Assembly (NCBI GenBank): GCA_944393745.1
Contig: CALYBD010000024.1
Location: 1 to 38,996, forward strand
Length of the DNA: 38,996 nucleotides
Reading direction: 5' to 3'
DNA from: an uncultured Alphaproteobacteria bacterium
GTDB lineage: Bacteria; Pseudomonadota; Alphaproteobacteria; CAAGCB01; CAG-977
In this document: one piece after another, positions 23,650 through 27,904 of the stretch
Position numbering within the stretch: the stretch's first letter is position 1
Layout: every line of letters starts with the position of its first letter
The notes under the pieces: generated by a model
Seen by the model: only the letters and a program-made list of their open reading frames with translations
What the model was told of the DNA's origin: nothing
Database searches by the model: none
Position numbers and translations under genes: made by a program

Positions 23650-24258
23650 TCAGATATAATAGCTCCAAGAAATGGTCAAATCTGTTACTCCTGTTCCGCC
23701 GGAGCAGGCTTCTACGGCCGTTGATACTGTCGGCAACAGGGGTAAGGGAGTAGACGTTTCGGTTGTGTTTTCGGAATCGACGGGACGAATATCTTTTTCC
23801 CATTGAAAAACAGAAGTTTTTCCGGCGACTTCCACTTTTATTTCTTTTAATCCCGAAGACGGGTCGTTTCCCCAATCGCCCAACAACAAATCCGGGCATA
23901 CGCTGGAAGGAATATCCTTGTAACTGAAAATAAAATAAGGATTTTCCCCGCTGTTTTCCAATTCCATTGTCATTTCCGTGCCATAGGTGTTCAAAGAAAC
24001 TCCGTCATCGTGAATATTTTTAAAAACACCTATTTCATATAATTGTTCAGACGTAATAGAAGACGGCAGAAACGAAGAAAACTGAGTCCGCATGGCTTTG
24101 ACAATATCGGCGATTTCCGTTTGCGCTTTGGTTAATTTAATTTTTTGATTCATACGGGTGATGCCTGTATACATACCGGTCGCTATGGTCGCCACAACAG
24201 CCAAAACCCCCAGAACTTCTATTAATGTCGCTCCTTTTTCATGAGAATGCAGGGTCAT
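23650..24258 (-). CDS. Type IV prepilin-like protein (PilS/PulG type)
   Basis: The 202-residue protein has a short leader ending EKG, then the processed N-terminus ATLIEVLGVLAVVATIATGM, with the conserved Glu at position 5. This is a clear type III signal for a prepilin peptidase. A helix (KAQTEIADIVKAMRTQF) and a globular head follow. The head has two cysteines, one in SSVCPDLL and one in EACSGG, which could form the usual C-terminal loop. No assembly ATPase, platform protein or peptidase lies in the window. It may be a pilus, pseudopilus or secretion-system pilin. ATG 24258 has an AAAGGAAA ribosome site. A small unknown gene lies 15 bases upstream on the same strand. Confidence 0.85.
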   Translation of the reverse strand: MTLHSHEKGATLIEVLGVLAVVATIATGMYTGITRMNQKIKLTKAQTEIADIVKAMRTQFSSFLPSSITSEQLYEIGVFKNIHDDGVSLNTYGTEMTMELENSGENPYFIFSYKDIPSSVCPDLLLGDWGNDPSSGLKEIKVEVAGKTSVFQWEKDIRPVDSENTTETSTPLPLLPTVSTAVEACSGGTGVTDLTISWSYYI

Positions 24259-24273: not shown

Positions 24274-24516
24274 TTAGACGAGTATATTGACATACGTTCC
24301 GCGCGGAGCGTTTAAAAAATATTTTTTTCCGTTAAGTTCGACAAATTCGGCATTTCGCGGCATCGGTATTTCACGCCTGAAGGCGGAAGCCTGAAAAGCA
24401 GGAGCATCATTATTTGCCTCTGCCGGCTGCACATGCACCCGATTTTGTCTTGATGCCGCGGCGATTCGATCCGTGTTCAGATCCAATCCTGATGTAAAAG
24501 AAGTTACCGGCTTCAT
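24274..24516 (-). CDS. Small protein of unknown function upstream of the pilin-like gene
   Basis: The 80-residue product has no membrane segment or signal peptide. It has a polar, Ala/Asn/Arg-rich N-terminal half and a compact C-terminal stretch FVELNGKKYFLNAPRGTYVN that looks like a short beta-rich motif. I do not recognise it. The case for a real gene is the GGAG ribosome site ten bases ahead of ATG 24516, the tight 15-base spacing to the pilin-like gene, and the absence of another gene here. It is divergent from the ChpT-like gene, sharing a 135-base AT-rich intergenic region, so it could belong to either system. Confidence 0.6.
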   Translation of the reverse strand: MKPVTSFTSGLDLNTDRIAAASRQNRVHVQPAEANNDAPAFQASAFRREIPMPRNAEFVELNGKKYFLNAPRGTYVNILV

Positions 24517-24651
24517 GGCAAATATTTCTCCGAATTCTTAATGGTAAAGATTGTTTAACTTAATTAGTATACAAAAAATAAGCAGACAAGTCGATACCAG
24601 ACTAAACTAAAAAAAGAGTCTGACCTGAGATTTCAAAGAAAGGGGTTTTTC

Positions 24652-25275
24652 GTGCCGCAATGTGATTTTTTATTTGCAAAATCTGCTTTGACCCGATTCA
24701 GCCATGATCTGTCCGGAGTGATCGGAGCCGTATCCAGCAGCTTGTCGCTGTTGTCCGAATTGGGCGGCACGGATAATGAAACGTTGGATCTGGCTTGCGC
24801 CAATGCGGATATTTTGATGGGGCGATTGCGTTTTTTTCGTGCGGCTTTCGGCAACGAAGGGCCTTTGACGGATCTGGCCGTTACACGAAAAATACTGGAG
24901 GATTACCTGCATACATTGGAAAATCGCGTTGTCCGGTTTTCGTGTGTGTGGCAGGCTGACCGTGAATTGCCGATTTTTCTTTTCCGGTTGATGTTGCTGA
25001 CCGGGCAGATTGCGGCGGAAAGTCTGACTCGCGGCGGTGAAATAACGATAAAGGCCAAAGCCGGCAGCAAAGAAATACGCGTTGAAGCAAAAGGAAAAAC
25101 CGTCTGTTTGGATCCCGAAGTGTTAAAGGTTGTTCATAATGAAGCAGATCAGGTTTTGTGTACAAAGACGGTACCTGTCGTTTTTTTACAAAACTGTCTG
25201 GCAGAACAAAATTGGCATTTATCCGTTGTTGACAGTGCTGAAAGTCTGATAATGTTATTAAACGAAAAGCACTGA
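24652..25275 (+). CDS. ChpT-like histidine phosphotransferase
   Basis: The 207-residue protein has a dimerisation helix with RFSHDLSGVIGAVSSSLSLL, matching the RxCHDLxSPxGAxxNGLELL pattern of ChpT. His18 is the predicted phosphoacceptor, followed by the diagnostic Asp. The remaining part (about 90-205) looks like the degenerate, non-ATP-binding catalytic-like domain of this family. In Caulobacter, ChpT passes phosphate from CckA to CtrA and CpdR; other alphaproteobacteria have paralogues with other partners. The start is GTG 24652, with GAAAGGGG seven bases upstream. The CheA-like gene begins 16 bases after its stop, so the two are probably made together. Confidence 0.85.
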   Translation: MPQCDFLFAKSALTRFSHDLSGVIGAVSSSLSLLSELGGTDNETLDLACANADILMGRLRFFRAAFGNEGPLTDLAVTRKILEDYLHTLENRVVRFSCVWQADRELPIFLFRLMLLTGQIAAESLTRGGEITIKAKAGSKEIRVEAKGKTVCLDPEVLKVVHNEADQVLCTKTVPVVFLQNCLAEQNWHLSVVDSAESLIMLLNEKH

Positions 25276-25291
25276 AAAAAGGATTTTGTCC

Positions 25292-27904
25292 ATGTCGGAA
25301 ATGCTTGAAGATTTTTTGAAAGAAACGCAAAGCAGAATTTCTGATTTAGAAAGCCTTTTTGCGTTGTTGGAAAAAAATCCGGCGGACGAAAAGGTGTGGA
25401 CGGCATTGGAATCTTTTTTCTGTTTTGTGCGTGCGGTGGCTCCTTTTGCTGGTTTTATGCGGGCGTATCGTTTGTCGGACGCCGGCGCGGCGGAAATAAA
25501 AGATTATCTGGCCCAAAAAACCGGCATGACGACGCTGCCGGCGATTTTGATGAAGTTTCAACGGATTAAAAAGATCTTTGCCGCTGCCGTTAGTTTAAAA
25601 CGTGAACCGCGGGAATCCGATGATGATTTGCTGCCCGCGGTTGTTGTTCAATCTGCAGAAACGGTGCAGGAAGACAACTTTCAAAATCCGGTTCGTCTTT
25701 CCGCGGAATTAACGGCTCAGGAAGCCGCGCTGGACGAACGCGAAGAACAGCTGGTGTTATGGGCTCAGGCTTTAACGGAACAGGAAAATGCCTTAAAACA
25801 AAAGGAAAATGTCCTGTTTGAGGAAGAACATCGTCAGGCGTTGTCCCAGGAAAAAATAACAGCCGTGATGACACGCCTGAACGAACAGGAAAAGCTGCAG
25901 ACCGATTTGGAAGATCATTTGGCCGAAACGCGTCTGGCGTTGCAGAGCTGTCAGGAAAAACTGGCCGATCAGGAAAGACAGCAGGAACAGGCAATGCGTT
26001 TGTTGGAAGTCAAAAACGAAGCTTTGAACGCAATGAGCCGTAAAATTCAGGATCTGACACGTCTGCTGGGGGAAAAGGAAAATTTAAGCGAACAACGTGA
26101 AGAACAGCTGTATCGCGAATTGCAGCAAAATCACCGCCAGGCTGAAGAATTGCGCATTAACCTGAAAACACTGGAAGAATTTCGTTCCGAAATCAGCGAA
26201 GATCATCGAAAAATGTCGTCTCAGTACAAGGTATTGGAAAAAGAATATCAGGACGCTTTGACACGGCTGGATATCGAAAAAGAAAATACCGAACTGATGT
26301 TAAAGGAAAAAAGGGAACTGGAAAAACAACATGTGGAGTTTAATTCCCGTTTTATTGCTCTGCAGGAAAGCTTAAACACCGAAAAAGAAAATTTAAAGCG
26401 TGCACAAAAGGCGCTGGAACAACAAAAACAGCGTAACGCATTTATTATGGGGGAATTAAAGGCGGCGTCCTGGCCGTATAATGCGGAAAAAATTCAAAAA
26501 GAACTGGCAACTTTGGCGCATCAGGGAGCTGCACAAAAAACGGCCGGCAGCCTGATGGTTTTAAAAGATCTGGTCGGTAATATACGTACGCGCTCTTTTA
26601 TGCAAATTCCGTTCTATTTACGAAAAATAGTACAAAAAGCGGCAAAAAAATATCAGCGTCATTATAAAATAGAAATCAGCAACCGGATCGAAAGCGGCGT
26701 GGATAAAGATACTCTGGTCGTTTTGGAACGTATTTTAAACGAAGTGACGGATAATGCTTTTCGTTACGCTTTCCCTGCCGAAAACGAAGAATTGACTCTT
26801 CGTTTTGCCGCCGAAGAAGAGGGGGCTTTCCTGCGTTTTTCCTTTTGTGATAACGGCTGTTCTTTTGATTTTGATAAATTGTACAAAGCCGTACAGGCTG
26901 CCGGCCTGACAAATAATGAAACAACAATGCCGCCGCAAAAAGATCTGCCGGTGTATCTGTTTCATCACGGCGTTAAATTTCATGAAGAACAACGCGGCCT
27001 GACAACCGTTGTCCGGTTGCTGGAAAAATCCGGCGGGCAGATTCACGGGGTTTTTGAAAACGGATTGTGTTTGTCTTTTTCCATACCAAAAAATTATCTG
27101 TTTGATAAAGTGCTGGTTTTCGGACAGGAAGGAAGCTTGTTTGCTTTGCCGCTGAATGCCGTTGCCGAAACCGTGTTTTTACAGGAAAGCGAATTCGGCA
27201 TTAAAACGCCGGAAGACGGTAAAAATCCCTTCTTTTACTGGAAGGGGCTGACGTTGCCGGTTTTAAATTTTTCTGCCCGGGAAACAACAACGGCGATGAA
27301 TTACGGGTTGGTCGTTCAATCCGGGATATTCTGCGCATTGATTCCCGTCCGTCAGATTTTTGATACGGAGCATCTGCTGGCTTTTTATGAAAAAAGTACG
27401 GGAACGGGGCAACCTTATCTGATTTCCTGTACGCTGTTGGAAAGCGGCAGAGAAGTTTTCTGGATTGATTTGTCAAAATTATGGGAACAGGCCGGATTGC
27501 CGGTTCCTAAAAAAATCGTGTCTGTTCCGGAAAACGCCGCATCGGGTCAGGCGGATACGGAAACGGTTTCTTATTTAATCTTCAGATCCGAACCCAGTGC
27601 ATTCGGTGCGGTTCGTGTTGATGCCGTTTTAAGGGTGGAAGATTTTTCATTTCCGCCGGCCAGTCTGGTTCATAAAAAATACTTTGAAACACAAGGGAAC
27701 CGTCTGCCTTTGAAAGATTCCTGTCCCCGTGACAGCTATCCGTACGCTCAGGCGGTATTGATTTTTGAAACTTTTGCTTTGGCTGTTCAGGAGGTTGTCG
27801 ACATCATCGATATTCCCGGGACGGAAAACGGCGGCGAAGAAACGGGTTTTATTGTGTATCGCGGCAGGAAAGTGCCCGTTTTTTCGATACAGGATCAGAA
27901 ATGA
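25292..27904 (+). CDS. CheA-like protein lacking the phosphoacceptor histidine, with coiled coil and two CheW-like domains
   Basis: The 870-residue protein reads in order as follows. Residues 1-105 are a helical HPt-like region in which the usual H-x-x-K-G segment is replaced by CFVRAVAPFAGF; the first histidine of the whole protein is at 180. Residues of about 133-390 are coiled coil. Residues of about 423-490 match CheA P3/P4 (LVGNIRTRSFMQIPFYLRKI, then RILNEVTDNAFRYAF). An ATPase-like domain follows with Asn488 and a G1-like CDNGCSFD (Asp520), and the usual Gly-rich lid is only QRGLTTVVRLL. Residues of about 606-735 and 759-870 resemble two CheW/P5 modules. ATG 25292 has AAAGGA eight bases upstream. 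The ChpT-like gene precedes it. The protein may use ChpT as its phosphoacceptor, or may be a scaffold without kinase activity. No receptor, CheY, CheB or CheR gene is in the window. Confidence 0.8.
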   Translation: MSEMLEDFLKETQSRISDLESLFALLEKNPADEKVWTALESFFCFVRAVAPFAGFMRAYRLSDAGAAEIKDYLAQKTGMTTLPAILMKFQRIKKIFAAAVSLKREPRESDDDLLPAVVVQSAETVQEDNFQNPVRLSAELTAQEAALDEREEQLVLWAQALTEQENALKQKENVLFEEEHRQALSQEKITAVMTRLNEQEKLQTDLEDHLAETRLALQSCQEKLADQERQQEQAMRLLEVKNEALNAMSRKIQDLTRLLGEKENLSEQREEQLYRELQQNHRQAEELRINLKTLEEFRSEISEDHRKMSSQYKVLEKEYQDALTRLDIEKENTELMLKEKRELEKQHVEFNSRFIALQESLNTEKENLKRAQKALEQQKQRNAFIMGELKAASWPYNAEKIQKELATLAHQGAAQKTAGSLMVLKDLVGNIRTRSFMQIPFYLRKIVQKAAKKYQRHYKIEISNRIESGVDKDTLVVLERILNEVTDNAFRYAFPAENEELTLRFAAEEEGAFLRFSFCDNGCSFDFDKLYKAVQAAGLTNNETTMPPQKDLPVYLFHHGVKFHEEQRGLTTVVRLLEKSGGQIHGVFENGLCLSFSIPKNYLFDKVLVFGQEGSLFALPLNAVAETVFLQESEFGIKTPEDGKNPFFYWKGLTLPVLNFSARETTTAMNYGLVVQSGIFCALIPVRQIFDTEHLLAFYEKSTGTGQPYLISCTLLESGREVFWIDLSKLWEQAGLPVPKKIVSVPENAASGQADTETVSYLIFRSEPSAFGAVRVDAVLRVEDFSFPPASLVHKKYFETQGNRLPLKDSCPRDSYPYAQAVLIFETFALAVQEVVDIIDIPGTENGGEETGFIVYRGRKVPVFSIQDQK

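Follow-up and report, generated by a model that had tools for sequence, protein, structure and literature searches.

DivL is a pseudokinase in the CckA-ChpT-CtrA pathway (PMC4211667), and in R. sphaeroides CheA4 phosphorylates the P1 domain of CheA3, the two forming a split kinase (PMC3591291). A pseudokinase in the relay (DivL) and a CheA that lacks P1 (CheA4) are already known. Here we describe a locus comparable with both. It lies in a 38,996-nucleotide stretch of DNA from an uncultured alphaproteobacterium (the window), where a gene for a ChpT-like histidine phosphotransferase precedes a gene for a CheA-like protein.

The CheA-like protein shares with DivL the loss of the phosphoacceptor and a histidine kinase fold that appears to have become a regulator of the CckA-ChpT-CtrA relay. 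However, DivL is HisKA-derived and has PAS domains, whereas the protein in the window is CheA-derived, carries receptor-coupling domains and gives no HisKA or PAS match in Pfam. Furthermore, the window's genome encodes another protein as its DivL-like candidate (L153:2892-5285, minus strand), a 798-aa PAS histidine-kinase-like protein that lacks a His box and reads KEINPQL in place of the usual HELRTPL. As in the CheA3/CheA4 system, this is a CheA without a working P1. CheA4, though, has a P4 that works and a P1-bearing partner, whereas here P4 is damaged and no Hpt partner was found in 11 of the 12 genomes that make up the family.

The protein also resembles the CheAs encoded beside chpT in other Alphaproteobacteria (Hpt-P3-P4-CheW-CheW-REC): it adjoins chpT, has the same domain order and matches them in profile along its whole length. 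It differs from them in having no P1 histidine, ATP lid, G2 box or REC domain, in carrying a long coil at the P2 position, and in no longer having cheW, cheY, cheB and cheR alongside. In the part of the literature covered by our search, we found no paper on the chpT-cheA neighbourhood, and nothing that deals directly with a CheA pseudokinase or with this bacterial group. Nor did we find, in the same part, a description of a family-wide CheA that lacks phosphoacceptor and ATP lid and adjoins chpT in genomes with one receptor and without adaptation enzymes.

Domain architecture and the nucleotide site

The ChpT-like gene is related to ChpT and diverged. The initial annotation had placed a ChpT-like gene with an intact RFSHDL motif 16 bases upstream of the CheA-like ATG, and the ORF, the motif and the spacing all stand. 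The protein matches PF10090 (HPTransfase; E=1.7e-14, Pfam profile search) and, in a PDB sequence search, ChpT structures (4qpj, E=1.3e-8; also 4fmt and 4fpp), with which it shares its fold family and its His-Asp pair. The pair is retained in all 12 family members. Despite this likeness, its score of 50.6 bits falls below the NCBIfam equivalog cut-off of 225, the NCBIfam ChpT models representing, going by their names, Caulobacter and Brucella/rhizobial groups. The ChpT of a ChpT-CheA cluster (L034) likewise falls below its NCBIfam cut-off (172 vs 240).

The CheA-like protein is colinear with CheA, in the order P1, coil in place of P2, P3, P4, P5/CheW and a second CheW-like module (Table 1). An alternative TTG start at 25286 is also open and would give 872 aa. 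Pfam detects CheW (PF01584, E=1.8e-6) and, weakly and under the cut-off, HATPase_c (E=8.7e-4); it finds no Hpt and no H-kinase_dim, and a PDB sequence search returns a coil match only. Profile-profile alignment against ChpT-linked CheA (hhalign) gives E=2.4e-33, colinear across P1, P3, P4 and both CheW regions, and the AlphaFold model finds the CheA core unit in Foldseek (6s1k, E=5.9e-20). The similarity to CheA proposed in the initial annotation is borne out by profiles, that to HATPase weakly.

Table 1. Features of the chpT-cheA locus, with positions in the window.
Feature	Position	Strand	Evidence
Conserved element 5' of chpT, GTAAAGATTGTTTAACTTAATTAGTATAC	24544..24572	+	Near copies in genus
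ChpT-like histidine phosphotransferase, 207 aa, intact His-Asp (RFSHDL)	24652..25275	+	PF10090, PDB ChpT matches
CheA-like protein (putative pseudokinase), 870 aa from ATG	25292..27904	+	hhalign to ChpT-linked CheA, Foldseek
P1-like (HPt) domain, residues 1-118; phosphoacceptor His column occupied by the Cys of CFVRAVAPFAGF	25292..25645	+	AlphaFold, Foldseek, alignment
Coiled coil, about residues 137-390, P2 position	25700..26461	+	AlphaFold helices 137-260, 294-391
Invariant Trp394-Pro395 and P3-like dimerisation helices, about residues 391-470	26462..26701	+	Invariant columns, AlphaFold, alignment
P4-like domain, about residues 471-605, with deletion of ATP lid and G2 box near 557-569	26702..27106	+	Alignments, Foldseek
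P5/CheW-like module 1, about residues 606-735	27107..27496	+	PF01584, E=1.8e-6
CheW-like module 2, about residues 736-870	27497..27901	+	hhalign; relatives with two CheW domains and REC

Structural models indicate that the P1 fold is kept. The P1-like domain is predicted as five helices (pLDDT 92), and its top Foldseek matches are the CheA P1 domains 1tqg and 2ld6 (probability 1.00, E 0.02-0.03; best match 1tqg, TM 0.78 on the target, E=0.02). The alignment behind this model of the N-terminal 118 residues included real P1 domains, which may aid the resemblance. A full model with family members alone as input gives the same helices in this part. As the initial annotation had claimed, the HPt motif is replaced: in alignment with real CheA P1 domains, CFVRAVAPFAGF falls on HTIKGTCGFLGL with Cys at the His column, and the earliest histidine of the protein is exactly residue 180. 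This column is H in 8/8 full CheAs, and in only one of the 11 family P1-like domains (G004); it is C in the window and D/D/D/D/K/E/S/E/G in the other members. In one further member (G007, L054:6989-9639) the P1-like domain is wholly lost, the stretch from coil to CheW is kept and the chpT and cheA frames abut.

The linker at residues 119-138 is free to vary; the coil, of about 250 residues as first described, is the most conserved part of the protein within the genus and differs in length among species. The P3 dimerisation profile (PF02895) has no match in any of the 12 genomes, yet the region is predicted as two helices (398-432 and 438-454), aligns with the MRMQP region of P3 and is part of the colinear profile alignment. 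Both annotated CheW-like modules are present, the second being missed by Pfam and supported by the profile-profile match to CheA and by AlphaFold strands. It is a homologue of the second CheW domain in ChpT-linked CheA; the REC domain of those proteins has been lost here.

The P4-like domain retains its fold and has lost part of its nucleotide site. Foldseek matches it to CheA P4 (1i59/1i5b, TM about 0.78), and N box Asn488 and G1 Asp520, both pointed out in the initial annotation, are invariant in the 11 aligned family members. What had been missed is that the ATP lid and the G2 box are both gone. The F box-to-G2 stretch measures 20 residues in all full CheAs vs 13-15 in the family members that cover the region; 5-7 residues of the lid and G2 are deleted, and GRGVG (GxGxG) has shrunk to RG or GG. 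The G1 glycines are partly lost in the family, down to DNV, DNS or DNA in some. Since GHKL kinases rely on the lid and G2, both deleted here, to hold the phosphates of ATP, catalysis by the CheA-like protein appears very unlikely. The invariance of Asn488 and Asp520 suggests that it may still bind nucleotide.

Origin and conservation of the chpT-cheA pair

The CheA-like gene derives from an arrangement that is common outside the family. In other Alphaproteobacteria, chpT is followed by a full CheA with Hpt, H-kinase_dim, HATPase_c, two CheW domains and REC. The initial annotation did not know the window's arrangement as a described system; the pairing itself is not special to this genome, the two genes being adjacent in 13 of the 20 sampled genomes outside the family that have a CheA together with a ChpT-sized match. 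Downstream of several of these pairs are frames reading like cheW, cheY, cheB and cheR, with ctrA and fliI in two loci, the unprofiled ORFs being named from their sequence starts.

A profile of the family separates two kinds of CheA. A class of about 900 aa scores 104-161 bits (19 proteins); the ordinary CheAs, about 700 aa long, score 41-69 bits (nine proteins); chpT adjoins 12 of the former and none of the latter. These class-wise scores, together with the colinear profile-profile alignment, indicate that the CheA-like protein descends from the ChpT-linked class, a placement drawn from profile scores, domain order and synteny and not from a tree. In the CheA tree, the family's stem is so long (several changes per site) that its exact branching point is not placed. 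The tandem CheW-like ends, first described as allowing array or receptor-like assembly, are indeed present; comparison with full-length CheA indicates that they were inherited and not gained. Gone from the family are the che genes that cluster with the pair elsewhere, and the CheA REC domain.

The pair is conserved as a unit. The CheA-like gene and a single ChpT were found in each of the 12 family genomes of the search set, none of which has an ordinary CheA or any H-kinase_dim match. At every family locus read, the CheA-like gene adjoins chpT, in surroundings that are mostly the same. Named family records are MAGs of rumen, faecal and other uncultured Alphaproteobacteria. The gene is a long ORF in each of the 12 genomes, at 28-68% identity, with a stop flagged in the G004 match. 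In G001 it is split over two contigs (L047:3-3200 and L048:12196-12804), the break falling inside a longer repetitive coil.

We show purifying selection on the gene in every structured domain, which speaks against decay. When the two closest genomes are compared, each structured domain has a pN of 0.13-0.29 against a pS of 0.55-0.80, ratios that are rough because synonymous sites are near saturation.

Signalling partners and possible roles

The family has a reduced chemosensory repertoire. An MCP signalling domain gives a single match per genome in 11 of the 12 genomes, the exception being a genome that is 88% complete, and the MCP tip motif is conserved across the family. The single MCP-like protein (L067:6007-8166, minus strand) is 720 aa long, has HAMP and signalling domains and terminates in a conserved acidic sequence (LPTYEE or similar). 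No CheR or CheB is recognisable in any of the 12 genomes. Stand-alone CheW was found in none of them, the CheW domain occurring within the CheA-like protein only, although the CheW profile gives no match in five genomes, missing even the CheW of the CheA-like protein, and a diverged CheW could hide. A co-conserved normal Hpt protein, raised at the outset as a competing acceptor, was not found: Hpt (PF01627) occurs in one genome of the 12 (G008), outside the CheA-like gene, in a 643-aa frame with further matches to HATPase_c and a receiver domain, and in a 170-aa frame.

Components of the CtrA relay and of the flagellum are present in the window's genome. A CckA-like protein (L120) has its HDF histidine and REC intact and scores 589 bits, below the cut-off of 1000; CtrA (L115) scores 391 bits against a cut-off of 350, has its Asp intact and adjoins fliI/fliJ-like frames. 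The genome also holds FlbD-like, FliM and flagellin-like genes, and a CheY with intact Asp lies beside fliM, an association seen in ten genomes including this one. Several flagellin-like matches cluster in long frames of 474-629 aa (G000:C40:13097-16380), with several in other family genomes too. In G009 and G010 (L144, L145), the N-terminal CheY-binding motif of FliM and CheY itself are drifting.

We see about an even chance that the CheA-like protein is a pseudokinase, derived from ChpT-linked CheA, that acts as an adaptor or scaffold between the single receptor and the remaining relay. Such a protein would be catalytically dead and would still dimerise, and its P5/CheW-like modules would bind the tip of the single chemoreceptor. 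It would alter the flow of phosphate from CckA through ChpT to CtrA, making none itself. A possible second outlet would be relay to the CheY beside fliM, modulated via the CheA-like protein. By analogy with DivL, which modulates CckA (PMC4211667), it would modulate ChpT, or CheY, in response to the one receptor. Against an adaptor count the His in the phosphoacceptor column of G004, the invariance of Asn488 and Asp520, and the possibility of a missed, diverged CheW. Taken further, and tentatively, an array with a pseudokinase CheA may feed CckA-ChpT-CtrA, ChpT-CheY or both; CtrA output and the flagellar motor would then be under the control of one receptor, with neither CheA kinase activity nor methylation adaptation.

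The initial annotation had proposed a kinase or scaffold feeding ChpT; the scaffold fits as the better alternative, and the kinase is unlikely. For P4 to bind ATP still and phosphorylate ChpT in trans, with transfer on to CheY or CtrA, would accord with ChpT being the sole His phosphotransfer protein recognised in 11 of the 12 genomes, with the two invariant residues, and with the real precedent of CheA3 and CheA4 (PMC3591291). However, CckA is a ready phosphate donor for ChpT, the G1 glycines are partly lost, and deletions have removed the ATP lid and the G2 box from all members with that region. Because of these deletions, the protein is unlikely to phosphorylate ChpT in trans, or to have kinase activity, and we regard this route as improbable.

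The protein might instead be a structural relic that organises the single receptor, for example at the pole, and plays no part in phosphotransfer, its place beside chpT being inherited synteny. We consider this somewhat unlikely. The chpT-cheA synteny is ancestral, the coil is better conserved within the genus than any other part, and G007 has dispensed with the P1-like domain while retaining everything from coil to CheW; yet the pair stayed together when the other genes of the che cluster disappeared, and the P1-like domain is under selection in the genus. It is highly improbable that the gene is a decaying pseudogene on its way out. The very long stem branch, the several catalytic losses and the drift of the FliM motif and CheY in G009 and G010 would suit decay, but a long ORF persists in every family genome at the identities given above, and pN is well under pS in each structured domain.

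If the adaptor reading is true, the family would hold a natural CheA that has neither phosphoacceptor nor ATP lid and is kept by selection, with one receptor and no adaptation enzymes. This would make testable what role a receptor-CheA assembly has beyond kinase control, and why chpT and cheA adjoin in so many Alphaproteobacteria. Their adjacency may point to an ancient connection of chemoreceptors with the CtrA relay.

The region upstream of chpT

The conserved element upstream of chpT, GTAAAGATTGTTTAACTTAATTAGTATAC, resembles the CtrA site TTAA-N7-TTAAC with one mismatch. Near copies occur in 7/7 genomes of the genus, and weaker copies in others. Each chpT-upstream CtrA-like site taken singly is not above shuffles (4-21%), and the window's genome has no second exact copy; we therefore dropped the element as a CtrA regulon motif.

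An 80-aa ORF (24274-24516, minus strand) runs divergently to chpT; it is conserved in the family and belongs to no Pfam family. A 73-aa relative (E=4e-4) in a distant genome also lies divergently upstream of chpT (L036:1150-1368, minus strand). The adjoining gene, likewise conserved in the family, encodes a pilin-like protein (23650-24258, minus strand) with an N-terminal methylation motif and a weak match to PF07963.
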